Origin: Bacillota bacterium
Lineage (GTDB): Bacteria; Bacillota; Clostridia; Ch29
Reading direction: 5' to 3'
Length of the DNA stretch: 64,000 nt
NCBI GenBank assembly: GCA_013540605.1
Contig: JABVCK010000020.1
Location: forward strand, 1-64,000
This document shows positions 5,528-43,206 of this stretch, piece by piece; position 1 is the stretch's first letter, and each line of letters starts with the position of its first letter. The position numbers and the translations under genes are program-made. Under the pieces are notes generated by a model. That model worked only from the letters and a program-made list of their open reading frames with translations. It did not search any database and was not told the origin of the DNA.

Positions 5528-7582
5528 TTAAGCCTCCTCTATGATAAGATTTCCATATTCATCAACAAATGCTTTCTGATCAGGATATAAAACTGTCACG
5601 GAAGTCTTTTCTTCAATTATCGCCGGACCGTTTATTTTACTATCTGTCCCTAATTTTTCTCTTTCATAAACAGCTACTTCGATCTTGCCATCTTCATCAA
5701 AATCAACAATTTTTCGACACCTGATAGCTTCTTCCGGTTTTCCTAGTATTTCTACAGGCTTAATTTCGGCCTTCTTAATCTTACAAAAAGCCGTGATGTT
5801 AAAGTTAACAAATTCAATGGGAGTATCAGGCAACTTAAAAGTATAATATTGTTCATGCAATTTTTCAAAGTTCTCTCTAATAATCTGGAGGTCTTCATCA
5901 TTTTTTAATTCCCTTGAAGGCACTAGCGTTCTCACTGTATGTTCCTGGCCTTTATATCTAATATCAGCTGATTTAACAATATATAGGTCTTTTTCCGCAA
6001 AACCATGCGCCAGGTACATTGCGTTAGCCTCTTCTATCATCTCGCTATATATGCTATTTGCTGTATCAATATTTTGATGATTGATACCAATTATTTTTGT
6101 CCTAATATAATCCTGTCTTAAATCAGTCATGAGCATGCCCCATGCAGAAAAGACACCAGGGTTACGGGGTACTACGATTTTTTTCACTTTTAATTCTCTT
6201 CCTAAGAAGGGACTATGAATTCCCCCATTACCGCCCATCGCTACCATAGCAAAATCTCTCGGGTCATAACCCTTTCTGATAGAAACCAGCTTTAAGGCAT
6301 TCATCATGTTATTGTTTGCTATTCTAATGATCCCTCTTGCTGCCTCTTCTACAGATATCTTATAATAATCAGCTATTTTCTTTACTGCTTCATATGATTT
6401 CTTAATATCAATATCATATTTATCTCCTAAAAATCTTGCAAGATCTATCCTCCCTGCAATATAATTGGCATCTGTCAAAGTCGGCTCCGTACCACCCCGG
6501 TTATAACATGCAGGTCCCGGTTCAGCTCCCGCACTCTGTGGGCCCACTTTAAGAACCCCAACAGAATCTATCCAAGCAATACTTCCTCCCCCAGCTCCAA
6601 TTTCTATAATATCGGTTATAGGTGCTTTAATAGGGTAACCGGCAAATATTGGTGTTTTTTCCAGGTGATAATCTGTTGTAATTTTTACCTCATTGTTATA
6701 GATCAGTGATGTTTTAGCTGTGGTACCTCCAATATCAAAAGTTATTATATTCCTTTCATTAATCATCTTACCAATTTCATTTGCTCCTATTACACCACCT
6801 ACAGGTCCTGATTCTATAACATTTATAGGATTAATTTTAGTCATTTCAAATGTTGCAGCTCCACCATTAGACAGCATACAATAAGGTTCAATCATTAATC
6901 CTTTTTCTTTCATTCTACTTTTTAATGTATCAAGATATTTCCGAGCTACAGGTTTTACAAACGCATTACAAACCGTTGTATTTGTTCTTTCATATTCCCG
7001 CCATTCTTTAATTAATTCAGACGATATACTAATTTCTACATCCGGCAATTCTTTTTCTAATATATCTCTTACCTTTTCTTCATGTTCAGGATTAGCATAT
7101 GAATGCAATAAACATACTGCTATCGCTTCAATTTCTTCATCTTTACATTTTTTTGCTATTTCTTTGACCTGTTTGGTATTTAACGGTATCAGTACATCTC
7201 CATCTTTGTTAAGCCTTTCCTCAACCTCAAATCGATATTTTCTTGGGACAAACGGCTTTGGTTTTGCGTAATATAAATTATAAAGATCTGTTCTATTTGC
7301 TCTTCCTATTTCAAGGGCATCTCTAAACCCTTTTGTCGTAATTAATGCAGTTTTAGCCCCCTTCCTCTCTGTTAACGCATTAATAACAATGGTACTACCA
7401 TGTACCACATAATTAGCTTCTTCTAAAGGTATATTTCCTTTTTCGACACAATCCATAACCCCATCTGCAAAATTACTAGGTGTGCTAGATGATTTTGTTA
7501 CAATTAATTCACCTGTATCTTCATTCATTGCAACATAATCAGTAAAAGTCCCTCCTATATCAATAGCTATCCTATAACTCAT
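5528..7582 (-). CDS. hyuA: Hydantoinase A / oxoprolinase subunit
   Basis: About 684 aa. It has the ASKHA-type ATPase signature at the start (RIAIDIGGTFTDYV) and a second phosphate motif in the middle (NIITFDIGGTTAKTS near 290), followed by the Gly-rich stretch EIGAGGGSIAWID. It is the ATP-using subunit that phosphorylates the ring amide before hydrolysis by the HyuB partner. I start at the ATG that has GGAGG seven bases upstream (MSYRIAID), two codons inside the longest frame. Cytoplasmic, no membrane segment. The neighbouring permease gene fits a role in use of an imported cyclic ureide. Confidence 0.92.
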   Translation of the reverse strand: MSYRIAIDIGGTFTDYVAMNEDTGELIVTKSSSTPSNFADGVMDCVEKGNIPLEEANYVVHGSTIVINALTERKGAKTALITTKGFRDALEIGRANRTDLYNLYYAKPKPFVPRKYRFEVEERLNKDGDVLIPLNTKQVKEIAKKCKDEEIEAIAVCLLHSYANPEHEEKVRDILEKELPDVEISISSELIKEWREYERTNTTVCNAFVKPVARKYLDTLKSRMKEKGLMIEPYCMLSNGGAATFEMTKINPINVIESGPVGGVIGANEIGKMINERNIITFDIGGTTAKTSLIYNNEVKITTDYHLEKTPIFAGYPIKAPITDIIEIGAGGGSIAWIDSVGVLKVGPQSAGAEPGPACYNRGGTEPTLTDANYIAGRIDLARFLGDKYDIDIKKSYEAVKKIADYYKISVEEAARGIIRIANNNMMNALKLVSIRKGYDPRDFAMVAMGGNGGIHSPFLGRELKVKKIVVPRNPGVFSAWGMLMTDLRQDYIRTKIIGINHQNIDTANSIYSEMIEEANAMYLAHGFAEKDLYIVKSADIRYKGQEHTVRTLVPSRELKNDEDLQIIRENFEKLHEQYYTFKLPDTPIEFVNFNITAFCKIKKAEIKPVEILGKPEEAIRCRKIVDFDEDGKIEVAVYEREKLGTDSKINGPAIIEEKTSVTVLYPDQKAFVDEYGNLIIEEA

Positions 7583-26768: not shown

Positions 26769-27300
26769 AATCGGGATAGGGGGCGGTGATTAGCCGCCGA
26801 CCCTCCCACACCACCGTACAAGCCGACCTGGCATACGGCGGTTCGTCAGAATGAACAAGTCATCGAGTATCGCTTTGTTAGACTTACAAGTCCCAGTTTA
26901 GTCAAATATTCATTGTTTAAGGTACAAGCCAGAATAGGGCTATTGGAGATTCTGCAGTAGCCTTTTCTTGTGTTGGCAAATTCCCACGCTTTTCTGTTGT
27001 CTATTCCCAGCATAACCAAGTTGTCATGCCTGGTTTTAACTTTACGCCACTGTTTCCAGATACACATTCGCAGTCTTCGCCTAATCCATTCGTCAAGTGT
27101 ACTGGCTAGATTCTTCATATCGGCCAGCTCGAAGTAGTCGACCCATCCGATTATGCTACTGTTTAAGGCTTTTATTCTTTGCTCCGTACTCCAGCCGTTG
27201 CTTCTTGACAGGATTTGCTTTACCTTTTCTTTGAATTTTGCTTCGGCTAATGGTTCCCACTGCAAAGCCCATAGCGGACTTTCACCGCCAAGCTATCGCC
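26769..27300 (-). mobile_element. Deleted group II intron: maturase C-terminus plus domains V-VI
   Basis: The frame 26846-27265 encodes the C-terminal maturase (X/D) part of a group II intron reverse transcriptase (GWVDYFELADMKN, IRRRLRMCIWKQWRKVKTRH). The reverse transcriptase core is missing. Downstream, 26844-26810 on the minus strand folds as a domain V-like hairpin (GAACCGCCGTATG with TGTACGGTGGT), then a domain VI-like stem and an end near 26769 (CCCTATCCCGAT). A short GGCGGTGAAAGTCCGC near 27285 looks like a domain I piece. It sits between the T-box leader and aroF and would be transcribed with them. Without the 5' half it cannot splice alone. Confidence 0.8.
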
Positions 27301-27449: not shown

Positions 27450-27750
27450 AAAAAACCTTCCATCCTCAAGGGACGAAAGGTTAATCTCGCGGTGCCACCC
27501 TTATTAGCTATTTAAAGCTCACTCACACAAAGTACAGGACCATCAGGCCCGATACCCGCCTTCTTTTAACGGTAAAGGTCTCCGGTAGGATGCTACTCTT
27601 GCAGTAAGAACAGGCTAACGGCAATTTCACCCTACAGCTTGTAGGCCCATTCGCTATACCCGGTACACACCGGAATCCCACCATCTCCGGCTCTCTGTAG
27701 TGTCTGCAGTATGCTACTTCTCCCACGCATTGCTTTTTACTAACTCGTTT
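27450..27750 (-). promoter_or_regulatory. T-box riboswitch for tRNA-Trp
   Basis: A full T-box leader: Stem I with AGAGAGCCGG and GGTGGGATTCCGG, a specifier loop GAATGGGCC whose codon UGG (27649-27647) reads tryptophan, the CCGTTA element, and T-box AAGGGTGGCACCGCG (27502-27488). The terminator is AACCTTTCGTCC paired with GGATGGAAGGTT plus T run (27484-27450). Uncharged tRNA-Trp would stabilise the antiterminator and switch on the operon. Confidence 0.92.
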
Positions 27751-27996: not shown

Positions 27997-29518
27997 TTAA
28001 TTCAGTATTTCTTCAATCGTACCTATTAATTCATTCGCAATATTCAGGCTATCCAATCTCATGATACTCTCCACAGAATTTCCGAAGCTCAAAAGATTTA
28101 TGCTGCCATACCAAACAATCCTTTGATCAATTACTGCAAACTTTTGATGTATATTTGATTTAAAAATAATACTGGCTCCTGTATTCTTTATGGAACTAAT
28201 CATCTCCTCAAACGTAAGCCTGTCCCTTTCCTTATAATCTGTTTCAGGCCGGGTAATAACGGTAAGCTTTGCACCATTGTCAATCCCGGTCACAAGAATA
28301 CTTAACATCTGGCTTAAACGCTTTTTGGTGACATAAGGACTGACAATGACAATGTCTGACTTAGCAGACGAAATATCATTACTGAAAACTGTCAGGAAGT
28401 TGCTATTGTCAAAAATTGTATTAATAGATTCAAAAGGCCTGCTGTCATCCCTGGCCGAATATCCGATAGAGGCATATCCGTTCAATCTTTTTTGATACAT
28501 TCTTTCAAATACCATTGTCATATTGTATCATAGAATCAACAGCATCTTCCTGCTCATCACGAAGCTGTCCGTTGAATTCAACGTCAATCCGTTTTCCTGA
28601 ATAGCTTTTATCAACCCATTTAACATCCACCTTGTGAGTATTAAGCAGGTTTATCAGATCAAGCTCGCATCCCCTTGGAAGACACAAGTATTCAGGCTTC
28701 TCGTCAGATAAGGAAATGATCCTGGGCTTATCAAAAGTCGGCAATCTCATAGCTTGAGCCTTATAAAAGTCAGGGTTTCTAAAGGCTGCCAGACGTTTAA
28801 TAATATTCAATGCTTTATGCGAAAAGCCATTTTTACTGATGTACAGCATATTTGCTTTGGTTACATAAACAGTGTCCGGAAAATCAGACTTGCTTAATTT
28901 ATAATTTGTCTTGCTTCTCTCCCATGGCTTGCATTCTTCATCTTCATCCTGTCTTAAATCACCCAATTCACTGCCACTGCATAGTTGCAAATGTATAAGT
29001 CAATTTCACTTTCACTGAGCTTCCGAATACTGCTCAAAAAACTCCACTGATCCTCATAGGGCCGGAGGTTTTCATCTATAAAAACACTATTAAAGAACCA
29101 TACATGCGCTCCATTCCCTGAACGAGAACGTTCAACTGCAAATGGAATATTTTTTTCTGCACAGATATCTCTCAAAACCGATATATCTTTTTCCCAGCCT
29201 TCATCATCGAAATCAATAGCAAGGAGATAGCAGGTTTCATCAAGCAGCATAGGATATATGCCAAAAACATCTTTGCCTCTGAGATGCTTGTCTATTGCTG
29301 CAAAGTCCAAAGCTGCATAGTTTTTATTATTGCATTCGGAGCATTTAATCTTTGGCTTATTGCAAATTCCTCTTGCCCACTCATTCAAACATACAGGAGA
29401 ATACCCCGATTTACCCTCTTTGTTTTGCCACCTTTTTGCATAGACATCATCCCTGCCCTAATCTTTGATTTTCCTCCAGTAGCTTCTGGTATTTTTCAAA
29501 AAGCTCATTATATTCCAT
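27997..29518 (-). pseudogene. Broken TOTE-type AEP primase-helicase-PLD gene, copy 1
   Basis: In order: a coiled-coil start (MEYNELFEKYQKLLEENQRL), a primase domain of the archaeo-eukaryotic type with catalytic LAIDFDD and SRSGNGAHVWFF, the front of a helicase domain ending QEDAVDSMIQYDN, and a C-terminal phospholipase D-like domain (IHQKFAVIDQRIVWYGSINLL). Proteins with this layout are known from the nucleotide-dependent TOTE conflict systems. Damage: a deletion and stop just after the coiled coil (near 29460), a one-base loss at about 28985 relative to copy 2, and removal of nearly the whole helicase core, including Walker A, near 28510. No functional product is expected. Confidence 0.85.
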
Positions 29519-29583
29519 CTTTCCTTACTTCCCAATACCCATTTTTTCTTGAACCAATCCGCTCAATTCATAATACCCATAAT
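28863..29583. repeat. Long direct repeat, left copy (partner 42484-43206)
   Basis: 721 bases matching 42484-43206 almost exactly; I find only two single-base indels (near 28985 and 29458). It covers the primase part of the TOTE-type gene and about 65 bases upstream. Both copies have the same orientation, 13.6 kb apart, so recombination between them could delete or amplify the signalling island. Confidence 0.9.
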
Positions 29584-29959: not shown

Positions 29960-31996
29960 CTATTCACATTCATTCATATACCGCACACAATTCCTGCCGG
30001 CAGCCTTTGCCTCATACATCATGTTGTCTGCCTTATTCACCAATGTATCAACCGTGTCCCCCGGACAGTAACCGGCAACTCCGCAACTGGCCGTTACATG
30101 ACCCACGCCCGGTATATCCATTTGGCTTAAACTTTCCCGCAGTTCTTCCGCTAAACGGGCCGCATTTTTTACCGTTGTATCCGGCAGAAGTATAACAAAT
30201 TCCTCCCCGCCCCAGCGGGCCAAGGTATCTATTTTGCGGATCCTGTTCTTAATCAATTCTGCTATGCTTTTAAGAACTAAATCACCGGCGTTATGGCCAA
30301 AACGGTCATTGATACTCTTAAAGCGATCTATGTCCAGCATTATCAGGGAAAACTTTCTGTCTGCCCGTTTGGCGCGCTCTATTTCTTCTTCCAGTTGTTG
30401 CGTAAAATAGCGGCGGTTATAGGCGTTTGTCAAAACATCAGTAACAGATAAATGGCGAAGTTCCTCTTCTATTTTTTTGTACCTGGTAACATCAGTGGCA
30501 TAATGAAGATAGACATCCTCTCCCAACGGGATCCACCACGTATCCCATATATTACCCGCCAGCTCCACTTCGCTGTTTATCGGTTCATTTCTGTCCAAGA
30601 CTTCGTCTCCGTGACAGAAATAGCATTTAGTGCCGGGTAAAGGGCTGCCTGTTTTTTTTAATGCCTCCCTGTATTCATCCGGCAGGTATTCCCCGCCATG
30701 GATGCCTTCCCAGCAATAATCTCCAATTTTTGTCCCAAATAATGACGCCGCCGCTTTATTCTGTGCCAGAATACGGCGCTCCCTTGAAACAAGCCAGGCC
30801 GGACTGGGAATGCCCTCCAGCATCAGGCGAAACCTTTCTTCTCTTCGCCTGTTTTCCTCTTCCAGCCGCTTGCGTTCGCTGACGTCGCGCACAATTCCGA
30901 CCGCATGCAAGGCGTCCATAATCCTCAAAGCAGACAGTGAGAGCTCTACATCAAGCTCCCGCCCGTCTTTATGTTTAGCTTTCAACTCCATTGTTTTCCC
31001 TATGGCATTCCCTTCCCTGTTCAATTGAAAGCGCTGGAAAGCCTGAATATGAACCTCATAAAGATGTTCATCCGGCACCAGCAGCCGGTGCAGTTCCTTC
31101 CCCATGATTTCTTCCCGGGAGTAGCCGAAGAGCTGTTCCGCTGCCGGGTTCCAAAAAGTGACGTTCCCCTGCCCGTCAAGCATGACGATGGCGTCCCGAG
31201 CCGAACCCAAAATGACGCTTAATGTCCCCTCTTTTTCCTGCAGTTCCTCTTCCATCGCCCTGCGTTCAGTCAGGTCAACAACCAACGCCAGGCATGATTT
31301 TTCTCCGCCGTAATCGAAAAGCTGCACATTTATTTCCACAGGGTACAGGGTACCGTCCTTCCGGCGGTGCACTGTTTTAAATAGGACCTGCTCCTGTTCC
31401 CCGCTGAACAATGGGTTAAGGAGTTTTTGGAAACTCTCCATATCAAATTCTGGTTTGAGGTCGAGAGGGGTCATGGTGTTCAGTTCTTCGATTGTATATC
31501 CCAGGTTTTTTCTGGCAGCGCGGTTTACAGCAACGAATTTTAAGGACTTCGGATGAAAAATATAGAGTTCATTCAGGGAGTTTTCAAAAAGCCGCTCAAA
31601 CATTCTGGCATGGGTATTTGCTTCATGAAGTTTCAAAGCCATTTCCACTGTGGATAGCAGCGCATATTTGTCCGTTCCCTTAACAACAAACCCGTAACCT
31701 TTGACCGCTTTAATCTTTTCGAGTATTTCCCTGGAGGTATTGGCGGTCAGAAATACTATGGGAATATCCCGGGATTTAAGTATTCTGCGGGCAGCATCTA
31801 TTCCGTCCATTTCCCCCGGCAATTCGATATCCATCAGAACCAGGTCTGGCGGAAAGCCGCCACTTATCTTTTGCACCGCATCTTCCCCTGTAACGGCAGT
31901 TTCCGTCTCATATCCGTTTTTATTCAAAAACTCCGCTACAATCATCGCAGTTAACCGGCTGTCTTCCACCAGCAGTATTTTTTCCCTTTTTTGCAT
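29960..31996 (-). CDS. Response regulator / PAS / diguanylate cyclase
   Basis: 678 aa. Receiver domain 1-125 (phospho-Asp in LVLMDIELPG, Lys in FVVKGTDK), three PAS domains (about 130-255, 260-385, 390-515; the first two have the usual NRAARKNLGY and NPAAEQLFGYS), and a C-terminal GGDEF domain with RWGGEEFVILLP. The inhibitory I-site RKID lies five residues before GGEEF, so product feedback is likely. It makes cyclic-di-GMP in response to phosphorylation and a small ligand or redox signal. No membrane segment. The third PAS contains CYFCHG, a possible metal or redox site. The gene stands downstream of the stressosome genes. Confidence 0.93.
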   Translation of the reverse strand: MQKREKILLVEDSRLTAMIVAEFLNKNGYETETAVTGEDAVQKISGGFPPDLVLMDIELPGEMDGIDAARRILKSRDIPIVFLTANTSREILEKIKAVKGYGFVVKGTDKYALLSTVEMALKLHEANTHARMFERLFENSLNELYIFHPKSLKFVAVNRAARKNLGYTIEELNTMTPLDLKPEFDMESFQKLLNPLFSGEQEQVLFKTVHRRKDGTLYPVEINVQLFDYGGEKSCLALVVDLTERRAMEEELQEKEGTLSVILGSARDAIVMLDGQGNVTFWNPAAEQLFGYSREEIMGKELHRLLVPDEHLYEVHIQAFQRFQLNREGNAIGKTMELKAKHKDGRELDVELSLSALRIMDALHAVGIVRDVSERKRLEEENRRREERFRLMLEGIPSPAWLVSRERRILAQNKAAASLFGTKIGDYCWEGIHGGEYLPDEYREALKKTGSPLPGTKCYFCHGDEVLDRNEPINSEVELAGNIWDTWWIPLGEDVYLHYATDVTRYKKIEEELRHLSVTDVLTNAYNRRYFTQQLEEEIERAKRADRKFSLIMLDIDRFKSINDRFGHNAGDLVLKSIAELIKNRIRKIDTLARWGGEEFVILLPDTTVKNAARLAEELRESLSQMDIPGVGHVTASCGVAGYCPGDTVDTLVNKADNMMYEAKAAGRNCVRYMNECE

Positions 31997-32276
31997 ATTC
32001 TCACCTTCAAAAGGCTATTTGTCCTTCTATTATACCTATGCCTCGATGTGCTCTGCCTGCCCTTTTAAAACCTTTGCCACATTTGTAGACCAACTGGTTG
32101 TCTTTATGAGAGCGTAAACCATTATCTTCTCCTAGCCCTGGAAGGTATAGCGAATGATTCCTTCCTCTCCTCTGGCCATCCTTGAGATGATGTTTGCATT
32201 TCCACAATATAAATCAAGATGCAATTTCAATATCAATGCTTTTATTTTAAATACAATCAAAGGAACCTCTCTCAAG

Positions 32277-33032
32277 TCATTTTTCACCAAACAGTTCTTT
32301 CTTTAAATCATCTAGCGTTTTTTCTGAAGACGGTTCAAAGGAAACTGCTTTCTCTAACGTCAAATTGATGTTGTTTTGTAGTAACTTATCTTGTAGTTTA
32401 TTAATAACAATGGTCAAATTTTTTTCTTCCGTTAGCGGTAAAACTACAAATATTTTATCTTCCATCACTAGTACACTATCAATTTTACGAACGTTTTCCT
32501 TAATTATAGAACTTGCCTCATCCAAATAATCATTTTCTACGCCAAAAAGCAAAAAGCTTAAAGATTTACCGGCACGAGTTGCCCGATCATATTCATTTAT
32601 TATAACTTCCTCTATTTTTGTTTTATTATCTTCTTTCTTACCTTTTATATTTCCATAAAGAGTCTCCATAACTTTTTCTATTCGTTTAGCCAGAAAATCA
32701 TGTTTAAATGGTTTTGCAATAAAGTCAATTCCACCAGCTTCAATAGCATCTTGCACAATTTTGTAATCGCTATGCCCAGAAATGAATATAATGGGAATAT
32801 TGCAATATGCTGGATGATCTCTCAGCTGCTTTGCAAAATCAATCCCACTAATCTCTGGCAATCCTATATCTAAAATGATAAGGCTGACATCATTCAGATA
32901 AAGATGTGGTCTTTGACTGATTACATTAGCAGAACTTAATTCTACAATATTTGAAAAACCACTTTCCTCTAATACTTTTTTAATTTGCAATCGAACAAGA
33001 TGACAATCTTCAATGATCAATATTTTTTTCAT
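32277..33032 (-). CDS. Response regulator with degenerate GGDEF domain
   Basis: 251 aa. A typical receiver domain (ILIIEDCHLVRLQI, phospho-Asp in LIILDIGLPE, switch IFISGHSDYK, Lys in IAKPFKHD) is followed after a linker by about 110 residues with the outline of a GGDEF fold. The signature is lost: VRKIDSVLVMEDKIFVVLPL occupies the place where active enzymes have RxxD, five residues, GGDEF. The RKID I-site remains, so the domain could bind c-di-GMP without making it (inferred). The 280 bases between this gene and the PAS-GGDEF gene show only an unrecognised 66-codon frame. Confidence 0.8.
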   Translation of the reverse strand: MKKILIIEDCHLVRLQIKKVLEESGFSNIVELSSANVISQRPHLYLNDVSLIILDIGLPEISGIDFAKQLRDHPAYCNIPIIFISGHSDYKIVQDAIEAGGIDFIAKPFKHDFLAKRIEKVMETLYGNIKGKKEDNKTKIEEVIINEYDRATRAGKSLSFLLFGVENDYLDEASSIIKENVRKIDSVLVMEDKIFVVLPLTEEKNLTIVINKLQDKLLQNNINLTLEKAVSFEPSSEKTLDDLKKELFGEK

Positions 33033-33109
33033 ACTAACTCAACACTACTCCTTCAGAGGTTACATCAAAAAAATTGTGGCCAGCCTCATCATCAAAATTT
33101 CCCAGCCCT

Positions 33110-33868
33110 TTACAACTTACGGATGATGAAGGACCCCGTATAAATATCTGTCTCTATTTCCTGATTATAAGATAGAAAACTGCTTTCTTCTTTCACATAA
33201 ATTCTGGTGCCGTTTATCTTCATCGTTACTTTCGAACCCCTGCGCGTAATTCCGGCAGAAAGACCGTCAATCAATCTGAAAAACCTGTGCATGGGCAGCA
33301 AGTAATCTGGAAAATCGGCTGGCAATTCATTTTCAGCATTATGATGATGCTTTATCAGATAATACACTTTATCATTTATGTCATATAGCGCCTTGCTTAA
33401 AGGCATCTGCCACCAATTTGAGCATGTTTACAACATGCCTGTAACAGCCTTCTTCGATCACACCGTTTATCTTTATCATGCCTGTACTTTCGTCATATTC
33501 GTCCATATACTTCTGGTAGGCCTCAAACAGCACGTCGTCCTGACCGCGGCAAGTTCCACATTTTCTATCCCCGGACCTCTGTCGCACGCAAGAATTTCAA
33601 TGGATACAGCTTTATCCGCCCCCTGTTTCTTTCTCATGTAAATATACCCTTCTTTTGCATACCTGTAAATGTTCCTTGCCAGTTCTGATACGGTCATGGC
33701 AATTTTTGTCACGTCAGCAAGCGAAAAATTGTTTTTCTGGGCAAAACTTTTTGCCATCTGCCTGGAAACGGCTATGTCGTTTTCGTCTTTTATTTTTAAA
33801 ACTATATCGTAATCGTGAGAATTTACATCAATCATCATCACTCCGTCATAAAAAGCACAGTCGGACAT
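33110..33868 (-). pseudogene. RsbT-like switch kinase, truncated and joined to an unknown sequence
   Basis: The first 110 codons (33868-33530) are an RsbT-type GHKL kinase: KIAMTVSELARNIYRYA (N box) and DRGPGIENVEL (G1 box). The G2 part is missing; instead the sequence continues, after a frame change near 33560, as an unrecognised 130-residue stretch (HVVNMLKLVADAFKQ, GLSAGITRRGSKVTMKING) with a second frame change near 33390. The start directly abuts the rsbS stop (TAAATG), the classic RsbR-S-T order. A functional RsbT is unlikely; the tail might be a separate gene. Confidence 0.7.
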
Positions 33869-34212
33869 TTAATCAAGTCGGTCTAGTATATCCATAGCGT
33901 CTTCTAGACTGCTTGCAGTGAAAATATCCTTCAGTTTTACGCCCATCTGTGCAAGCGTAAGCGCCACTTGCGGCTGAATCCCGCAGATCACCGTATAACA
34001 GCCCATGGCTTTGGCCATGCCGGCGGTCTCCGAAAGGACAAATGATATGTAACTGTCGATTACGTCGACCATACTGACATCTATCACTATTCCCCGGATA
34101 TTTTTCTCATTTATCTGATTGAGTAATTGCATCTGGAGTTTTTCTGCTGTGGCGTCGTCCAGTTCAATCTGAATGGGGACAATTAGATAATCGTAAACTT
34201 TATTGTCGGCAC
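33869..34212 (-). pseudogene. rsbS: RsbS, stressosome scaffold STAS protein, with 5' frameshift
   Basis: The main frame from 34132 has the RsbS core: GIVIDVSMVDVIDSYISFVL carries the Ser (VSMVD) phosphorylated by RsbT, then VICGIQPQVALTLAQMG. Homology continues upstream (VYDYLIVPIQIELDD) but has no start in frame and runs back to the rsbR stop. A GTG at 34212 in another frame gives PTIK, exactly the missing N-terminus, so one A has apparently been lost from a short A run at about 34197-34199. Either a real mutation or a sequencing slip. RsbS and RsbR form the stressosome core. Confidence 0.75.
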
Positions 34213-34216
34213 AACC

Positions 34217-34953
34217 CTATTCTTCATCTGTGTTCCCTCTTTTTTGGTTAATCAGTTTTCGCGTGATATCTTCTGTAGAGATGCTAATAGCGTATTTAAG
34301 TGCGCTTTCCAGGTCTCTTTTTATAATAATCATATTAAAATCAACGCCTATCTTTACAAGGGTATGGGCTATCTCCGGCTTTATCCCTGTCACAATAACA
34401 TCGCTGCCCAAAAGTTTCACGGCGTTGAACATTTCGATTAAAAATCCCCCAACAACCCTATCTATCATGGCCACACCAGTCACATCGACAATTACAACTT
34501 TAGCCCTAGCGGCAGCGGCGCTTTCAAGAAGTTTTTCAGCCATGCTCTGTGCCCTCTGACTGTCAAGTGTACCAATTACAGGGACAAGAAGCACATCCTG
34601 CCATAGCCGTATAATCGGGGTGGCAAGTTCGGCAAGGATATCACGGAGTTCTGTTATCCGCATCTGATTTTCCCTATTCATATCTCCGAGCACTTCTGTG
34701 AACGCCTTATAAACATCAACTATGGGAAAATTTTCTATTTTAGCGTGTAAAAGTCCTATGCCGTCCGATAGTTCCTTTTCACTTATACGATCTAAGAAAT
34801 TGGAAATGAGGGCTTTCAATTCTTCTTTAATATTCGCTTTTTCACAAACTCCGGCAAAGTCTACAAGAAAATCCTCCCACGCTTTTTTTGTCCATCATCT
34901 TTTGCCAGTTCATCCACAAGTTTACCAAGTCTTGAAATTATAATATCTTTCAT
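34217..34953 (-). pseudogene. rsbR: RsbR-type stressosome protein with a frameshift near its start
   Basis: The C-terminal STAS domain is typical: LATPIIRLWQDVLLVPVIG, VVIVDVTGVAMID (Thr phosphorylated in RsbR), IVTGIKPEIAHTLVKIGVDF. The N-terminal sensor part starts at an ATG (34953, MKDIIISRLGKLVDEL) and runs into a TAG. Adding one A to the A run at about 34888 restores a frame that joins smoothly (AWEDFLVDFAGVCEKAN) to the 200-codon main frame. This is the same kind of loss as in rsbS. If these are base-calling errors, RsbR is about 245 aa and complete. Confidence 0.78.
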
Positions 34954-35227
34954 GATTAATGAAACCTCATTGCAAAATGTGGTTATCCCTTCCCATTTAT
35001 AATAATTTTATTATATTTTTCACAAAAATCAACACGTTTTTGGTTTTTTCTTCATTTTTGAAAATTTTAAGCTATGCTGCACCTCCATGTAATTGTAATT
35101 TTTTAACAATCACCGCATGCTGAAATTGTACCAGCTCCGGCCGCATCAATGTCAAGGTTTCGCTTTGCCGGCTGGGGCCGACCTTGACATTGGCGACCTC
35201 CGCCAGTTCATTATTATCAAGCGGTGG

Positions 35228-35431
35228 TTAGATGACCTCTGCCGATGGAATCGACCCATAATAAATACTGGCAGGTGTTTCGTAACCTAAGGCCTGATAG
35301 GGCCGGATGTTGTTGTATTCTTCAATGTATGTCCTTACTGCCCGGTAAACCTCTTTAGGTTTGTGATATGAATCGTAATAAATTCTTTCCCACTTGAGAT
35401 TACGGAAGAACCTTTCTGTTATGGCATTCAC
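35228..35431 (-). pseudogene. C-terminal fragment of an IS3-family transposase
   Basis: 67 residues of the OrfB integrase end: NAITERFFRNLKWERIYYDS and EYNNIRPYQALGYETPAS, with the usual last Glu region absent. It abuts and overlaps the end of the second rsbR gene, so the IS cut into that gene's 3' end. The 35034-35227 stretch to its left carries a GGTCAAGGT/ACCTTGACA inverted pair but no gene. Confidence 0.8.
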
Positions 35432-36140
35432 CTGGGAAATTACTACCCCGTGCCCATACGATTTTTCTCTGCCGGCTCCTGTCTTCCTCGATCATGGCTA
35501 TAGCCTGGCGCAGAGCATCTTCAAGGTCACGCGCTATCACCACCATGCGGAAATCGATCCCCAGCTTAACCAAGGTGTGGGCGATTTCGGGCTTAAGGCC
35601 GGTTAGGATAACCTCCGCTCCTAGTAGCTTCACTGCGCTAAACGTTTCGATGTCAATCGTGGGGACCCCGGTGATATCCACAACTACCACTTTGGCCCGC
35701 GTGGTACTGACGCGCTCCAAAAGCTTTTCTGCCATACCCTGCGCCCAGTCACTATCCAGGCTGCCAATCAGCGGCACCAGCAGTACCTCCGCCCAAATGC
35801 GGATAATCGGCGTTGCCAACTCCGAAAGCATGCGCTCAAGCTCGCGAACAGCCTGCTCGCTATCGTGGCGCAGCTCACCACAAAGCTCTAGTATCAGCGG
35901 CAAAAACTCGGTTGTCGGAAAAGTTGGTGTACGCCCGATAACAAGCTTCAGTTTTGCCCCCAGCGCCGTTTCTCCCAGTTCATGAGGCAACCCAAACAAG
36001 GGTTCCCGTATCATCTCACGCAAATTATTTCCGGTGGCACCCGAAACAACTCCTGGAAAAAGTTTGCGCCATAGTTTCTCTTCGTGCTTACTACCAGCCT
36101 CCAGTTCCTCAACAAGCATTTCTACCCGGTTGTCATCCAC
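35400..36140 (-). CDS. rsbR: Second RsbR-type stressosome protein, ends altered
   Basis: About 246 aa from a GTG (36140) with AAGGGAG nine bases upstream. N-terminal sensor part (no recognisable globin motif), then the STAS domain: LATPIIRIWAEVLLVPLIGS, VVVVDITGVPTID, ILTGLKPEIAHTLVKLGIDF. Compared with its neighbour, about 8-10 residues are missing right after VPTID, a helix of the STAS fold, and the last about 20 residues come from the joined IS3 sequence. Function may be impaired. It lies next to the GGDEF/KaiC/HD-GYP genes, giving the cluster two different sensor RsbR proteins. Confidence 0.78.
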   Translation of the reverse strand: MDDNRVEMLVEELEAGSKHEEKLWRKLFPGVVSGATGNNLREMIREPLFGLPHELGETALGAKLKLVIGRTPTFPTTEFLPLILELCGELRHDSEQAVRELERMLSELATPIIRIWAEVLLVPLIGSLDSDWAQGMAEKLLERVSTTRAKVVVVDITGVPTIDIETFSAVKLLGAEVILTGLKPEIAHTLVKLGIDFRMVVIARDLEDALRQAIAMIEEDRSRQRKIVWARGSNFPGECHNRKVLP

Positions 36141-36245
36141 TTTAACATACTCCCTTCTTGTCAAACGAAAGTACGAACACGACAAATCTCATGAAGGGTA
36201 AAAGTATATTAAGCATCTCCCCATAGCAAATTAAAGAGAATATTA

Positions 36246-37661
36246 TTACGATGGGTCCAAATAGAAGCGGTTTTTCCCTTGTCTTTTCGCCTGATATAAG
36301 GCCTGGTCCGCCCTTTCAAGCAAGGAATCAGCAGAATCGTTGTTTTTCGCTAAAGCTATCCCCAGGCTTGCGGTAACCTGGCGGTACGGGAAAGGATAAG
36401 TCTCTATCGATTTCCGTATTCTTTCCGCCACTTTTGCAGCACCTTCCTTTTCCGTCCCTGGAAGAATAATTACAAACTCCTCCCCTCCGTAGCGACCCGC
36501 AATATCCACACTCCTGATGCTGTTTTTTATTATCTCTGCCGTTTTCTGCAGCACCACATCGCCGGCCACGTGGCCATATGTATCATTGTAAGCCTTGAAA
36601 TAATCTATGTCCACGAAAATAATCGACAAAGGGGTACCGTACCTCATTGTCCTCTCGAGTTCGGTAAACAGCATGTTCCGCAGGGAACGCTTATTAAAGA
36701 AACCGGTCAAGAAGTCGGTTTCGGCTTCTCTTTCCAGTCGGCGGATAAAAGTTGCATTGGCCAGGGCCACTGCGGCGAAGTTGGCATATATCTGCAGATT
36801 TTTGCTACCGTTGTCATCCGGGGAAACAGGGGCCACTATACCTAACAACCCGACGGCACCCAAAGCACTCCAGAGGGGATAAACAATAATTTCAGTCCCA
36901 GGAGTAACCTCTACACCGCCAAGACCCGGTAGAGTCCTTAACTCCTCAAGACTCAGAGATAAGGGCTCAACTTTTGAAAAAACCTGTTCAATCAACGGCT
37001 GGACCAACGGCCATTCGGTCCCGGTCAATAGGTGGCTGTGTTCACCTTTGGCTTGCGCTATTCTGATTTTGTCACCTTCTCGAAGGCCTACAAAGCATAA
37101 ATCAGCCTTGTAGATTATAATCAACGAATTCGCTATAAGGTCCAGAACCTTGTCCAGCTCGACGATGGAGGTCATCAGGCGGCTGATCTCATAGATGCTG
37201 TTCAGCTCAAGCCTCCGTAATCCTAACAGGTTTTTTTCCAGGATAGCCTTAAAAACCTCATTAATCGTCTGGTAAATGCTATGTGCTTTCGTAACAAAGA
37301 TATTTTCTTCCTCACGTCCCACCTGGGTTATAAGCCTGGTAGGAGTGACAATAAGGAACCCTATCTTTTGGGCGTAGGAGCCCAGGCGGTACGCGCAAAG
37401 TTTAATCCCGTAAGGGCAGGTAAGCATGTCTTTATCTTCTAATGAACCGAGGGCAGACTTATAAAAGCTGATACACTTTTCGTCGCGGAGCACCCTCCCT
37501 TTATTTACCTCCCGGCATAATTCAACGGGCAGACTAAATTGGGAAAAAGAACCACCATTTATATCAAAGATATAAATATTTGCATCCATGACCTTGGCCA
37601 GCGTATCCTGAAAGTCCTGCCAGTATTTTACCGATATATTGAGGAGAAGGTTTGTTGGCAT
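36246..37661 (-). CDS. PocR-GAF-GGDEF diguanylate cyclase
   Basis: 471 aa. Residues 1-130 form a PocR-type sensory domain with spaced cysteines (DEKCISFYKSA, MLTCPYGIKLCAYRLG), 160-300 a GAF domain, and 305-471 a GGDEF domain with FVDIDYFKAYNDTYGH and RYGGEEFVIILPG. The I-site RSVD precedes it by five residues. It should make c-di-GMP in response to a small molecule or metal-bound signal. It begins 11 bases after the KaiC-like gene, on the same strand, so the two are probably co-transcribed. Cytoplasmic. Confidence 0.92.
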   Translation of the reverse strand: MPTNLLLNISVKYWQDFQDTLAKVMDANIYIFDINGGSFSQFSLPVELCREVNKGRVLRDEKCISFYKSALGSLEDKDMLTCPYGIKLCAYRLGSYAQKIGFLIVTPTRLITQVGREEENIFVTKAHSIYQTINEVFKAILEKNLLGLRRLELNSIYEISRLMTSIVELDKVLDLIANSLIIIYKADLCFVGLREGDKIRIAQAKGEHSHLLTGTEWPLVQPLIEQVFSKVEPLSLSLEELRTLPGLGGVEVTPGTEIIVYPLWSALGAVGLLGIVAPVSPDDNGSKNLQIYANFAAVALANATFIRRLEREAETDFLTGFFNKRSLRNMLFTELERTMRYGTPLSIIFVDIDYFKAYNDTYGHVAGDVVLQKTAEIIKNSIRSVDIAGRYGGEEFVIILPGTEKEGAAKVAERIRKSIETYPFPYRQVTASLGIALAKNNDSADSLLERADQALYQAKRQGKNRFYLDPS

Positions 37662-37672
37662 CTAGGAGCACC

Positions 37673-39076
37673 TCATCTTAACATATCTGCTCTGTCTAAT
37701 TTACCGAGAATACTTATTCCGTTTGGCGTTATCTCATATTCCCTCAGGTCCTTGTTATGGTAGCTTCCGCGGGTTTTCATGATTCCAAGGACTTTTTTGA
37801 TGTGGGAATTATCCTCTACATACCGCAATATGATTATATTATCGATTATTAAGGATATTTGTGTTTTGGATACTATGAGGGATGAAAAGGGGTCGTCGTT
37901 GACCGCCGTAAATATGGTGTTAATCTGCCGTCTCCTGAGCTGCTGTCCCAGCGCCCAGAGATAATCCTTGTACTTTTGTAGATCAGAAACGCTGTTTTCA
38001 AAAGAAGAGATGCTGTCAATGACAAACCTCTCCACCTTTTTTTCCCTGATCATGTCCAGTATCTCAAAAGCGTGTTTATCTACATCCAGTTCTACGGGAG
38101 AAATAAACTTGATATCGAGTCGACCCTCTGCCAGATGTCTATCTATCTCCCACCCCAGGTGACGGGCAGTATTAAGAATTTGAGCCGCAGGCTCTTCAAA
38201 TGAAAGGAATATTCCTTTTTCGCCTTTTTCAGCCCCTTCCAGTAGGAACTTAAGGGCAAATATCGTCTTGCCCGCACCTGTGCCACCGGAGATGAGTGTA
38301 ATAGTCCCTTCTGATAACCCATCAGACAACATTTCGTCTAAATCCGGGATCCCGAATCCCTTGCGCCCCTGCTTGACCTCGTACCGGAGTTCTTTACCCT
38401 CCGGCCTCATCCTCGGGTACACTTCTATTCCCACAGGGCTGATTTGAAATAAATGTTCCCCCTGTTCAAAACTGGTCCCCCTCATTTTCCGAATACGTAT
38501 AAACCTTTTTTGAAAACGCTTTTCTTCCTGCCCGTAAAGGTGAAAAATCCCGTCAGCTATGGCAAACTCGCTTAAGAGCGTCAGCTCCTGTTCTTCGTAC
38601 TCGCCGACGAGAAACACGGTAATTTCCCATATCGATAAAACGGCAGCCAGGTCAAAAACAAAAGCCTTAAACGTTTTTTCGTCCGGGAAGAGGTCTCTTA
38701 TGGCCTTGAAACTATCAATTACAACTATGTTCGGCAGATGTTTTTTGATCATTTCAGTCAGGTATTCCAAAGCCTTGTCCGTCCCCTGTTTGCGCAGAAC
38801 AAATCCCAAATCCCCGTAAATAACCTTGTCCCCCAGCAAATCATCTGAAAAAAACTCAAACCCCTGCAGATGCCTTACCATCTTGAACTGTGATTCCGAT
38901 ATAGTAGTCAGATATAGACTTTTGAGGCCGCTCCTGGCGCTGTTAAATATGATGTTTTGAACAAATATCGTCTTTCCGCTTCCCGGAGCGCCGGAAACAA
39001 TGTTTAATGAATAAACAGGTATGCCGCCACCAAGAATATAGTCAAAATTTTTGATTCCTGTTATCAATTTATCCAT
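37673..39076 (-). CDS. KaiC-like double RecA-type ATPase
   Basis: 467 aa with two KaiC/RadA domains: Walker A SGAPGSGKTIFVQN near residue 30 and SGGTGAGKTIFALKF near 265; Walker B-like IVVIDSFKAI and FVIDSISSF; and a Glu pair in FLSFEEPAAQ in the second half. The first half lacks a clear Glu pair (SLYLTTISESQ). Outside cyanobacteria such proteins are signal-transducing ATPases whose partners are usually unknown. It starts three bases after the small upstream gene ends and precedes the GGDEF gene, pointing to a role in setting c-di-GMP level or the stress response (inferred). Confidence 0.88.
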   Translation of the reverse strand: MDKLITGIKNFDYILGGGIPVYSLNIVSGAPGSGKTIFVQNIIFNSARSGLKSLYLTTISESQFKMVRHLQGFEFFSDDLLGDKVIYGDLGFVLRKQGTDKALEYLTEMIKKHLPNIVVIDSFKAIRDLFPDEKTFKAFVFDLAAVLSIWEITVFLVGEYEEQELTLLSEFAIADGIFHLYGQEEKRFQKRFIRIRKMRGTSFEQGEHLFQISPVGIEVYPRMRPEGKELRYEVKQGRKGFGIPDLDEMLSDGLSEGTITLISGGTGAGKTIFALKFLLEGAEKGEKGIFLSFEEPAAQILNTARHLGWEIDRHLAEGRLDIKFISPVELDVDKHAFEILDMIREKKVERFVIDSISSFENSVSDLQKYKDYLWALGQQLRRRQINTIFTAVNDDPFSSLIVSKTQISLIIDNIIILRYVEDNSHIKKVLGIMKTRGSYHNKDLREYEITPNGISILGKLDRADMLR

Positions 39077-39079
39077 CTA

Positions 39080-39448
39080 TCATTCCTCCCTGCAAGAAAA
39101 AGAGACACCGGCAACTTCTTCTTTCAGCTTGTTTTTTATTTCCTCCGCTCTTTCATGGCCAAGAAGTTTGGCCAAAATTGCTACATACCTGGTGATAAAC
39201 TTCTTGAACATGTCTTGGACAGGCAGGTCCGGGTTTTCCTCTAAACCGGCTGCTATCCTTGCGCATGATATCCCATTCTGGTCATACTGCAGGAGTTCTA
39301 TTTCCTTATACTCCAGCGAAACTTCCCACACAACCCTTTCTATAAGAAGATTTACAGAAACCATCCCAAGGTACTTCGCCGACGCAGTCCATATCTCCTT
39401 CAGCAAAGTTTCATAGTGCTCAATCCGCTCCTTTTTGAATTCACTCAT
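39080..39448 (-). CDS. Small helical protein of unknown function
   Basis: 122 aa from the second Met, which has GAGGATTG upstream; the frame begins earlier but without a site. Charged and mostly helical, with two Cys (ISCARIA near 75 and FSCREE at the end). No known domain recognised. It is sandwiched between the HD-GYP and KaiC-like genes with gaps of 34 and 3 bases, so it is most likely a partner or adaptor of the KaiC-like ATPase. Confidence 0.65.
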   Translation of the reverse strand: MSEFKKERIEHYETLLKEIWTASAKYLGMVSVNLLIERVVWEVSLEYKEIELLQYDQNGISCARIAAGLEENPDLPVQDMFKKFITRYVAILAKLLGHERAEEIKNKLKEEVAGVSFSCREE

Positions 39449-39482
39449 AACAATCCTCCTCAGATAAAAACATAGATTCAAA

Positions 39483-41669
39483 TTAGTTATACCTTGCTGT
39501 TTGAAAATTTCCACGGGGACGGATTATCTGCGAGAGCACTTCTACAAAAAGTTCCATTAGGGTATCTACCCCCCCCCCCCACCCGGAAATTTTTTCCATT
39601 TCGCCTTCCGGAATCTGGAGGAAAGCCTCCACAATGCGCGGGTCAAACTGCCGGCCCGCCCATCGCCTTAATTCCTCCCGCGCCCGCCGTTGAGTAAGCG
39701 GCTGCCGGTATGGCCTGGCGGACATCATGGCATCGTAAGTATCGGCCACGCGGATAATACGCGCCAGCAGCGGAATCTCTTCCCCAGCCAGGCCGGCGGG
39801 ATAACCACCGCCGCCATAGTCCTCGTGATGGTGCCGTACGGCTGTAATGACCGCCGCCGGAAATCTGGCGGGCTCCAAAATCCTGGCCCCCACAACAGGG
39901 TGGCTCTGCATCTCCTTTCTTTCTTCCTCAGTGAGAGGTCCCGACTTGAGAAGAATGTCTTCGCGCACGCCGATCTTGCCCAAATCGTGTAAAAGCCCGG
40001 CCAGGTAGACTTGTTCCTTTTCTTCGGCGCCAAGCCCCAGCACGCGGGCACATGCCCGCGCCCAATTCGCCACCCGCACGGAATGACCCCGCGTGTAAAC
40101 GTCCTTGGCCTCCAATGCCGCCGCCAACGCCTGCACGGCACTCAAATAATAATCCCGCAGCGACGAGTAAAGACGGGCGTTCTCCAGCGCCAGCCCGGTC
40201 TGGCTTGCGATGGTCGCCAGGTAACCGACTTCTTCTTCCTTCCAGCGATGCGGGGAGGAAGAATATACCTTCAGTGTACCCAGTACATTTCCCCTGGCCA
40301 GTACGGGAACCACGGCAACCGAACGTATCTCTTTGCTGTAATATGGCAGGCGCAAAGAGGGAGCGCACTTTGCCAAATCTTCCACGAGCTGCGGCTGCGC
40401 CGTTTTCAGCACCTCACCCAAGATTGTGCCTTCTGCTCGCACTCGCTCAACCTCTGCCTGCAAGTCCTTGCTCATGCCCAGGCTCGCTTTCAGCACCAGT
40501 TCGCCCGTCTCCTCGTCAAGCAGCCTCAGCGCACACCACTTCGCACCCAGGACTTCCTTCAGGCTTTGCAGCGCATATCCCATGAGCACGTCCGCTTCTA
40601 AACTGGAAGATACCAGTTGCCCGACCTCAATAAGTTGCTTGAGCATCGCCGCGTTTTCCTCCAGATCCCGGAAAAGACGAGCGTTCTCCAGGGCCAGGGC
40701 AAGGCTTGTACCAAGGACGCTTAAAAAGCGAGCTTCGTCTTCGCCGAACTCCGCACCCTCAGGTTTGCCGGACAGTGTCAACACCCCTGTTATTTTATCC
40801 CCGACCTTGAGGGGCATGGAAAGGGCTGGCCGCTTCTCCTCGACCGTGCTGCCTTCCGGGTGGCTGTCAAATCGCAACTCACTTCCTTCGCGCGTTACCG
40901 CTTCAATGACCTCTTTTTCGGGAACCACCCGGAACTCTTTGCTCGATTCCGCAGTAGCAGCAACTTCAGTTGATTCGGGGGTTCCCCCGGCAAGCATGAC
41001 CACCGACCCGCTGGTGGCGCCGGTCAGCCCGAGGACGAGTTCCAGGGCCTTTTGAGCTGCTTCTGATACACGAAGGCTTGACGAAACAACCTGGCTGAAC
41101 TCGAACAAGGCCGCAAGCTTTTCAGTCTTTTCCTGCAACTCTTGCTTCGAATACAAAAGCCGGGAAAGAGTATCCGTGAAGGTATGAAAAGGTTCGACTG
41201 CCTCCCGGAGGCGCTCTTCCGGCCATACCGGTACCCTCCGGGCAGCTTCCATAAGTTCCTTTCCATTAAGGCTCAATTCTCTTGCCAGTTCCGGCACAAT
41301 CTCGAGACGCAGTGGTTCCAGGCTTACGTTCTCCCCTATCACGACGGCTACAGTCTCGTTTTTTATTTTGATCGGGAGAGCAATAAGTACCAGACCTGCA
41401 TGGCACAACTGCAACGTGGGTTGCCCGGATTTGGCAACGGCCTTTGCCGTTTCAATCCGGGAACCCTTACAACGCGCATGACCCGGGTCCGTATTATTGA
41501 TTATGGCACAGAAAGGGCAAAGATTACTTATCCTGGTAATCGGCTTGCCGCTCGGGTCTGTAACTAGAGCTGCAAGGCCCGTGACTTTACTTACTTGCTC
41601 CTGTATCTGCTGCAATCCCGCTTCTTCCAAAAGTTCCTTATAGTCCAGGTGCGAAAGTTCCTTTTTCAT
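39483..41669 (-). CDS. PocR-GAF-GAF-HD-GYP phosphodiesterase
   Basis: 728 aa. Residues 10-165 are a PocR domain with Cys cluster (LCPFCAIINNTDPGHARCKG, LQLCHAGL), then two GAF domains (about 185-335 and 345-500), then an HD-GYP domain with HDLGKIGV and HHEDYGGGGYP, residues needed to cut c-di-GMP. It therefore opposes the GGDEF proteins nearby. The gene is much richer in G and C than its neighbours, suggesting transfer. A run of 12 G near the 3' end (39580-39569) precedes an odd 33-residue tail; a one-base change there would end the protein at once. Confidence 0.92.
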   Translation of the reverse strand: MKKELSHLDYKELLEEAGLQQIQEQVSKVTGLAALVTDPSGKPITRISNLCPFCAIINNTDPGHARCKGSRIETAKAVAKSGQPTLQLCHAGLVLIALPIKIKNETVAVVIGENVSLEPLRLEIVPELARELSLNGKELMEAARRVPVWPEERLREAVEPFHTFTDTLSRLLYSKQELQEKTEKLAALFEFSQVVSSSLRVSEAAQKALELVLGLTGATSGSVVMLAGGTPESTEVAATAESSKEFRVVPEKEVIEAVTREGSELRFDSHPEGSTVEEKRPALSMPLKVGDKITGVLTLSGKPEGAEFGEDEARFLSVLGTSLALALENARLFRDLEENAAMLKQLIEVGQLVSSSLEADVLMGYALQSLKEVLGAKWCALRLLDEETGELVLKASLGMSKDLQAEVERVRAEGTILGEVLKTAQPQLVEDLAKCAPSLRLPYYSKEIRSVAVVPVLARGNVLGTLKVYSSSPHRWKEEEVGYLATIASQTGLALENARLYSSLRDYYLSAVQALAAALEAKDVYTRGHSVRVANWARACARVLGLGAEEKEQVYLAGLLHDLGKIGVREDILLKSGPLTEEERKEMQSHPVVGARILEPARFPAAVITAVRHHHEDYGGGGYPAGLAGEEIPLLARIIRVADTYDAMMSARPYRQPLTQRRAREELRRWAGRQFDPRIVEAFLQIPEGEMEKISGWGGGVDTLMELFVEVLSQIIRPRGNFQTARYN

Positions 41670-41695
41670 CGGCCTGCCCTCCTAAAAATGTAAGT

Positions 41696-41890
41696 TTTGC
41701 TGATTTATCCATAGTCCTGATGGACTTTTTTATTATCTCTGCCGTCTTCTGCAGCACCACATCACCGGCCATGTGGCCATATATATCATTGTAAGCCTTA
41801 AAGTTATCTATGTCCACGAAAATAACGACAAAGGGATACCGTACCTGATGTCCTATCGGATTGACCCCCGAATTTTGGAGTGATCTAACT
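41696..41890 (-). pseudogene. GGDEF-domain fragment
   Basis: About 50 residues of a GGDEF domain (FVDIDNFKAYNDIYGHMAGD to SIRTMD), close to the 36.2-37.7 kb cyclase, cut at both sides before the GGEEF signature. Its frame continues into the start of the HD-GYP gene. A leftover of a duplicated cyclase gene. The IS3 derivative begins directly on its other side. Confidence 0.75.
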
Positions 41891-41896
41891 AAACTG

Positions 41897-42483
41897 GACA
41901 CACAGAACGGTGCTTTTCTCCTCTTTTCTTAGAGTTACTCATTATTTCATAAAAGAAATCGTTTGTTTTGCTTGCCAGGGTAATAAACATAATATTCAGA
42001 ATAAAACTTAGGCTATTACCCATATATTTCCATTTATGCGGCCGATAGGAGCCTATCCCAGTCTTTAATAGTTTTTCTTTGTGTAAGTTAGGCTGCTAGA
42101 GATTTCCTGTAATGCCTTTCAAACTCTATGGGAGACATATATCCCAAGGCACTGTGCAGTCGTTTTGCATTGTCGAATGTCTCAATATAATCTTTCTTTC
42201 TAAAGCCTTTCGTTCAGCATCATCACTGCGAAGATTACCTTTGCCGGGAAAAGCCTGGTCGCCATGAGCGTTGTATTGTTGTACCCAACGCCGGATAGTT
42301 GTAGCACTGACGCCAATATCTTCTGCTACATTAACAGGTTTCTTGCCAAGGTCTGTAATAAGCTTAACGATTTCTTTCTTGTAGTCAGCACTAAATTTTT
42401 TTCAGTCATTTGCTTAACACGCCCTTTCTTTAGGTTCTATTATAACAACCTTTCTGCGTTTCCAGCAAACCGAGTACAGTCCA
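41897..42483 (-). mobile_element. Deleted IS3-family element
   Basis: Minus strand: the start of OrfA (FSADYKKEIVKLITDLGKKP, VSATTIRRWVQQYN, a helix-turn-helix) passes at about 42205 straight into the last 35 residues of OrfB ([20 protein letters not shown]). About 1 kb between is gone. Putative ends TGGACTGTACTCGG (at 42483, minus) and TGGACACACAG (at 41897, plus) are only partly alike. It cuts off copy 2 of the TOTE-type gene. Confidence 0.78.
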
Positions 42484-43141
42484 ACATAAACAGTGTCCGG
42501 AAAATCAGACTTGCTTAATTTATAATTTGTCTTGCTTCTCTCCCATGGCTTGCATTCTTCATCTTCATCCTGTCTTAAATCACCCAATTCACTGCCACTG
42601 CATAGTTGCGAAATGTATAAGTCAATTTCACTTTCACTGAGCTTCCGAATACTGCTCAAAAAACTCCACTGATCCTCATAGGGCCGGAGGTTTTCATCTA
42701 TAAAAACACTATTAAAGAACCATACATGCGCTCCATTCCCTGAACGAGAACGTTCAACTGCAAATGGAATATTTTTTTCTGCACAGATATCTCTCAAAAC
42801 CGATATATCTTTTTCCCAGCCTTCATCATCGAAATCAATAGCAAGGAGATAGCAGGTTTCATCAAGCAGCATAGGATATATGCCAAAAACATCTTTGCCT
42901 CTGAGATGCTTGTCTATTGCTGCAAAGTCCAAAGCTGCATAGTTTTTATTATTGCATTCGGAGCATTTAATCTTTGGCTTATTGCAAATTCCTCTTGCCC
43001 ACTCATTCAAACATACAGGAGAATACCCCGATTTACCCTCTTTGTTTTGCCACCTTTTTGCATAGACATCATCCCTGCCTCTAATCTTTGATTTTCCTCC
43101 AGTAGCTTCTGGTATTTTTCAAAAAGCTCATTATATTCCAT
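42484..43141 (-). pseudogene. TOTE-type AEP primase gene, copy 2, truncated by IS3
   Basis: Same coiled coil and primase domain as copy 1 (LAIDFDD, SRSGNGAHVWFF), here with the frame intact through the primase (198 codons from 43010), but cut at TVYV by the IS3 derivative, so helicase and PLD parts are absent. The deletion after the coiled coil is shared with copy 1, so the gene was already broken before duplication. The tail after TVYV is IS sequence. Confidence 0.85.
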
Positions 43142-43206
43142 CTTTCCTTACTTCCCAATACCCATTTTTTCTTGAACCAATCCGCTCAATTCATAATACC
43201 CATAAT
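42484..43206. repeat. Long direct repeat, right copy (partner 28863-29583)
   Basis: 723 bases, identical to the left copy apart from two extra single bases. Left boundary is the IS3 end, right boundary is CATAAT at 43206, where the two copies diverge abruptly. Confidence 0.9.

Follow-up and report, generated by a model that had tools for sequence, protein, structure and literature searches.

A KaiC-like ATPase, a small helical protein and a predicted diguanylate cyclase form a conserved gene trio beside decayed stressosome genes in a Clostridia genome

The genes described here are located within a 64,000-nucleotide (nt) stretch of contig JABVCK010000020.1 from a Bacillota bacterium (GCA_013540605.1), hereafter the window, in which eleven features run from position 41669 down to 29960, all on the minus strand. 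The locus was annotated by Pfam, NCBIfam and Protein Data Bank (PDB) sequence matching, and lesions were called against intact relatives (Table 1). The first four genes, which are tightly packed with spacings of 34 nt, 3 nt and 11 nt, encode a putative cyclic di-GMP (c-di-GMP) phosphodiesterase of the HD-GYP type, a 122-amino-acid (aa) protein that we designated h122, a two-domain KaiC-like ATPase and a PocR-like/GAF/GGDEF protein (PocR-GGDEF) that is predicted to be a diguanylate cyclase. Stressosome genes (rsbR1, rsbR2, rsbS and rsbT) and two receiver-domain genes follow. A preliminary description of this locus had listed two RsbR proteins, RsbS, an RsbT-like piece, GGDEF proteins including a degenerate one, an HD-GYP protein and a double KaiC-like ATPase, and all of these were found. 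The genes for h122, KaiC and PocR-GGDEF, referred to below as the trio, probably constitute one conserved, co-translated signalling module in which a KaiC-type switch would gate the cyclase.

A KaiC scan of named genomes returned 16 relatives with 63-95% identity, and the addition of further genomes gave 27 relatives for which the neighbourhood was read. Carriers of the trio include Moorella mulderi, Moorella stamsii, Desulfofundulus, Desulfotruncus, Desulforamulus putei, Desulfovirgula, Thermanaeromonas, Ammonifex and an Atribacteria bin. In all 27 relatives KaiC was preceded by h122 at a distance of 3-64 nt, and in 26 of them it was followed by PocR-GGDEF after 13-27 nt; gene order was identical in the window and in these 26, with near-constant spacing and variable flanks. 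The exception was Fervidicola, in which both KaiC and PocR-GGDEF were broken. In Fervidicola ferrireducens (L047/L056) these two genes are fragmented and an RsbR-S-T operon lies on a separate contig. One trio gene with a broken frame was found in each of L035, L044 and L097. Among 113 genomes of the Desulfofundulus class, KaiC was present in 19, h122 in 20 and both in 18, always adjacent (Fisher p ~1e-17, by a test that ignores phylogeny), and in one of the two h122-only genomes the contig ends where KaiC begins. The ratio of nonsynonymous to synonymous substitution rates (dN/dS), assessed against D. putei, was 0.12 for KaiC, 0.21 for the cyclase, 0.30 for the HD-GYP protein and 0.36 for h122, which indicated that all four are under purifying selection. 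The linkage in other Clostridia that the preliminary description had proposed as a check was borne out for the trio, whereas linkage of the HD-GYP gene to it was variable among the relatives.

The KaiC-like ATPase belongs to PF06745, which it matches in two stretches, and carries a Walker A motif in each domain. Domain 1 contains GAPGSGKT and has TT(I/L/V)SE at the position of the catalytic EE of KaiC, and domain 2 contains GGTGAGKT and SFEE, in which E294 and E295 are nearly invariant. S408, which is invariant in 25 sequences, aligns with S431 of KaiC. The cyclase has the GG(D/E)EF and I-site motifs of an active-type diguanylate cyclase; its GGEEF, its RxxD I-site (R383..D386) and three cysteines (C49, C63 and C82) are invariant in 18 orthologs. 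Its match to PocR (PF10114) scored 21.2 bits against a cut-off of 23.9, and a low-confidence model resembled the GAF domain of CodY. The PocR domain of the HD-GYP protein scored 126.7 bits, above the PF10114 gathering score; this protein retains the HD and HH..GxGYP motifs and is 95% identical in aa sequence to its D. putei counterpart.

More distant h122-KaiC pairs, in which KaiC is ~35-45% identical, lie next to a PAS-HisKA-HATPase kinase gene, with a CheY-like gene nearby in most. The N-terminus of this kinase matched residues 8-217 at the N-terminus of the cyclase (hhalign E 5.4e-7). Because the sensor of the histidine kinase beside the distant pairs is related to that of the cyclase, the output of h122-KaiC appears to be swappable, and KaiC may dock on the sensor common to the cyclase and the kinase. 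Still more distant KaiC-like proteins precede genes for GGDEF-HD-GYP proteins, SpoIIE-type phosphatases or histidine kinases, which suggests that KaiC beside an output enzyme is a general theme. In L061 and L065 a GGDEF-HD-GYP protein comes directly after the distant KaiC-like protein, and in L064 a PAS-SpoIIE-HATPase protein comes after it.

Pfam, NCBIfam and PDB sequence matching gave no match for h122, and a PDB profile search also returned no relative. The AF2 model of h122 (pLDDT 83.7) had no Foldseek match under E 1e-3, and its VIA scores were at the level of helical bundles only (Z up to 6.3); a known fold was therefore dropped as a candidate. Viral relatives of h122 were searched for and none was found.

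All four stressosome genes in the window are damaged. In rsbR1, a 21-nt in-frame deletion within STAS at 35651 removes TAAGGFL of ...PTIDTAAGGFLIETF..., a segment that we take, by comparison with RsbR, to hold the conserved phospho-threonine position, and from 35427 an integrase-core (rve_3) fragment takes the place of the 3' end of the gene. Deletions of 1 nt were identified at 34881 in rsbR2 and at 34201 in rsbS, and homology to rsbT ends at 33547, ahead of the ATP-lid motif. The window also lacks the genes for PP2C and RsbU_N-GGDEF that would be expected after RsbT, and no further RsbT of this family was found in the window genome, in which weaker matches were other HATPase proteins. The two 1-nt deletions could be sequencing errors, but such errors cannot explain the 21-nt deletion, the insertion sequence (IS) junction, the truncation of RsbT and the missing PP2C and cyclase. 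Judged by these lesions, the window stressosome is broken and not a working set, and the "complete c-di-GMP control set" of the preliminary description was too strong a term. Because the stressosome genes are broken, only the KaiC branch, the HD-GYP protein and the receiver-GGDEF proteins are likely functional at this locus. The interval 33110-33547, which separates the broken rsbT from the receiver gene, contains a 98-aa frame and its frameshifted upstream part, without a family match.

Table 1 Features of the window between positions 29960 and 41669, in order along the minus strand.
Feature	Position	Strand	Basis or remark
PocR-GAF-GAF-HD-GYP, putative c-di-GMP phosphodiesterase	39483..41669	-	Pfam HD_5 2.4e-39, PocR 9.7e-37, two GAF
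h122, 122-aa helical protein	39080..39448	-	stop 3 nt ahead of KaiC start
Two-domain KaiC-like ATPase, 467 aa	37673..39076	-	Pfam KaiC 1.5e-80; PDB KaiC 3.9e-72; alignment
PocR-like/GAF sensor with active-type GGDEF, predicted diguanylate cyclase	36246..37661	-	Pfam GGDEF 1.6e-48
rsbR1, decayed	35427..36185	-	91% nt identity to D. putei rsbR
IS3-type transposase (integrase core) remnant fused to rsbR1	35228..35427	-	rve_3 3.3e-9, rve_2 4.5e-7, 66-residue fragment
rsbR2, frameshifted	34217..35010	-	comparison with L036 and L041
rsbS, frameshifted near start	33869..34217	-	STAS match begins only at profile position 30
rsbT fragment	33476..33868	-	no homology beyond 33547; lacks the G2 box and the ATP lid
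Receiver domain with degenerate GGDEF-like C-terminus	32277..33032	-	sole Pfam match Response_reg 3.8e-22; weak DgcR-family match
Receiver-PAS(x3)-GGDEF, GGEEF and RxxD	29960..31996	-	GGDEF 2.8e-49, Response_reg 8.6e-20, PAS in three stretches

The segment from 41763 to 35427 has 94% nt identity to D. putei. KaiC is absent from ~145 classmates of the window genome, five of its own family among them, yet is 95% identical to that of D. putei, whose TrpE is only ~51% identical to the TrpE that flanks the cluster. These results indicated that the trio segment was acquired horizontally. The distribution of KaiC is patchy elsewhere as well, with 6 of 22 Moorellia and the 19 genomes of the Desulfofundulus class carrying it, and two members of one family, Moorella and Thermanaeromonas, were placed far apart in the KaiC tree, indicating that the trio has moved repeatedly. 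The window rsbR2-S-T genes have 82% nt identity to L036 and 79% to L041, the RsbT falls in the L036/L041 clade, and the receiver-PAS-GGDEF gene has 76% nt identity to part of L036. By these comparisons the window locus is a composite, its stressosome pieced from two stressosome clades. The cluster is flanked, at 28863-29583 and 42484-43206, by two nearly identical copies of a fragment of an AEP-TOTE primase gene, which are 13.6 kb apart in direct orientation and are possibly a recent duplication, an insertion scar or an assembly join. A GGDEF fragment located upstream of the HD-GYP gene (41638-41901) has ~90% DNA identity to the GGDEF of the cyclase gene, and KaiC and GGDEF remnants that match it occur in D. 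putei (L040 ~7257-7376); together they appear to be a decayed tandem copy of the trio. A T-box leader (27466-27739, minus strand) is located close to trp/aro genes and to a fragment of a group II intron maturase gene (26846-27265).

In several trio genomes an RsbR-RsbS-RsbT-PP2C-GGDEF operon adjoins the trio, mostly followed by GGDEF-EAL, and RsbR, RsbS and RsbT were found in order beside the trio in L035, L036, L038, L039, L040, L041, L049, L053 and L095. The GGDEF protein of this operon has a weak RsbU_N domain, like that of the Moorella cyclase MtG, the known target of the Moorella stressosome (PMC12143880, PMC4976288). As far as the Moorella thermoacetica MtR-S-T-X-G operon (Quin et al. 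2012) is represented in those two sources, the relatives share with it the order of RsbR-S-T, PP2C and RsbU_N-GGDEF and differ in the added trio and, often, HD-GYP and GGDEF-EAL; the window differs in having no X or G and only broken copies of R, S and T. Several Moorella genomes, among them G401, G446 and G506, carry an operon of this type without the trio. The 27 trio genomes, a count that includes the window's, comprise 9 that lack this RsbT and 18 that have it. In 12 of the 18 it is no more than 10 kb from KaiC, a distance expected by random placement in 3 Mb with a chance of <1% each, although the genomes are not independent. The layouts are at least three, with the stressosome directly downstream of the trio (L039, L040, L049 and L053), downstream but separated from it by 3-5 kb of other genes (L037, L038 and L095), or upstream (L036 and L041), the last forming a separate RsbT clade with support of 100/100. 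KaiC, h122, RsbT and MtG are all intact in D. putei and M. stamsii. Since the trio and the stressosome each occur alone and their layouts differ, they are separable modules that were brought together repeatedly. In L050 (G438), the RsbT beside an intact trio is split by ~1.6 kb, an independent stressosome disruption. Chance neighbourhood through IS activity, which the preliminary description had named as the alternative, was rejected for the trio, given its synteny and the proximity of RsbT to KaiC, and accepted for the stressosome pieces of the window.

In the mechanism that we propose, KaiC would form a hexameric ring in which domain 2, with its EE pair, acts as the ATPase and possibly autophosphorylates the lone conserved Ser408, resulting in a two-state switch and not a KaiABC oscillator. 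The h122 protein would bind KaiC as an adaptor or sensor, and the ring would dock on the PocR-like/GAF sensor of its partner and set the dimer state of the cyclase. The c-di-GMP output would be set by the nucleotide or stress state together with ligand at the PocR-like domain, which has three invariant Cys and may add ligand or redox input. Nearby HD-GYP, GGDEF-EAL and stressosome-cyclase genes would be extra c-di-GMP inputs gathered at the locus, and in the window genome the module would have arrived by horizontal transfer beside the now-broken stressosome genes. Several points weigh against this mechanism. Domain 1 has no EE pair; the match between the kinase and cyclase sensors had an hhalign probability of 92% and not higher; and the role assigned to h122, which has no recognisable fold match, is a guess. 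As the trio and the stressosome each occur alone, direct cross-talk between them would be hypothetical, and their co-location could reflect a shared second messenger only.

The preliminary description had suggested an ATP-dependent timer or switch that feeds the c-di-GMP pool. A KaiC-based timer or oscillator driving c-di-GMP rhythms would suit a full-length homologue that shares with cyanobacterial KaiC a two-domain RecA-type ATPase, both Walker A motifs, a CII-type EE pair and the S431-equivalent Ser. The protein differs in the TT(I/L/V)SE of domain 1, in the Leu (L409) at the T432 position, by which one of the two clock phosphosites is gone, and in the absence of the KaiA-binding C-terminal tail from the alignment, and it has h122 as its partner and a GGDEF enzyme as its output. 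Of 18 genomes searched for KaiA (PF07688) none had it, and of 29 searched for KaiB (PF07689) only G549, a distant relative, had it and the window genome did not, while the cyanobacterial control for KaiA and the S. elongatus control for KaiB were positive. These results ruled out a KaiABC clock and indicated that the KaiC-like protein is not a clock, so that a timer is highly improbable. The suggested switch remains the best reading, without the integration of a stressosome in the window, where those genes have decayed.

That RsbR, RsbS, RsbT, KaiC and the c-di-GMP enzymes act mutually in one circuit that functions in the window genome is quite unlikely. Relatives do keep the complete stressosome operon beside the trio, and two stressosome clades adjoin it, but the damage to all four window genes, the loss of PP2C and RsbU_N-GGDEF, the lack of another RsbT and the occurrence of either module alone all argue against such a circuit. 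The tie between stressosome and KaiC proposed earlier holds, as a gene neighbourhood, for the operons adjoining the trio in several lineages and not for the decayed, two-clade patchwork of the window. It is also unlikely that the genes are a loose signalling island, held together by mobility and a c-di-GMP theme only, with KaiC not directly coupled to the cyclase. The patchy spread of KaiC (0/145 among classmates), the composite locus, the IS remnant and the flanking repeats would be consistent with an island; a trio whose order is fixed and whose spacing is tight while its flanks vary is not, nor is the related sensor that the h122-KaiC pair keeps despite a swapped output.

KaiC-like ATPases are common outside cyanobacteria, and their outputs are mostly unknown. 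Archaeal KaiC-like signal hubs, attributed to Makarova et al. in 2017, reportedly have genes for KaiC-like ATPases next to those for sensor and output proteins that can be exchanged; the subfamily described here is instead bacterial, has a small partner of its own and uses GGDEF or HisKA as its output. BcsE likewise links a RecA/KaiC-like domain to GGDEF-type c-di-GMP control, but as a single protein in which the ATPase is dead and a domain binds c-di-GMP (PMC7439463), whereas here the ATPase and the cyclase are two proteins, each with active-type motifs. The components are of known kinds, and the literature searched contained neither their combination, in the form of an h122-KaiC-PocR-GGDEF operon, nor a joining of KaiC to the stressosome. 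We tentatively suggest that the KaiC-type ring and its helical partner could be a second, clock-free KaiC switch, with GGDEF or histidine kinase outputs exchanged via a common sensor, that parallels the stressosome in many thermophilic Clostridia. In this KaiC subfamily the small partner is fixed and the predicted enzymatic output, c-di-GMP synthesis, is clear, and a sister branch uses a histidine kinase. The role of KaiC without KaiA and KaiB thereby becomes testable via a cyclase assay, and a second ATP-dependent switch would be placed beside the stressosome-cyclase pathway of Moorella.

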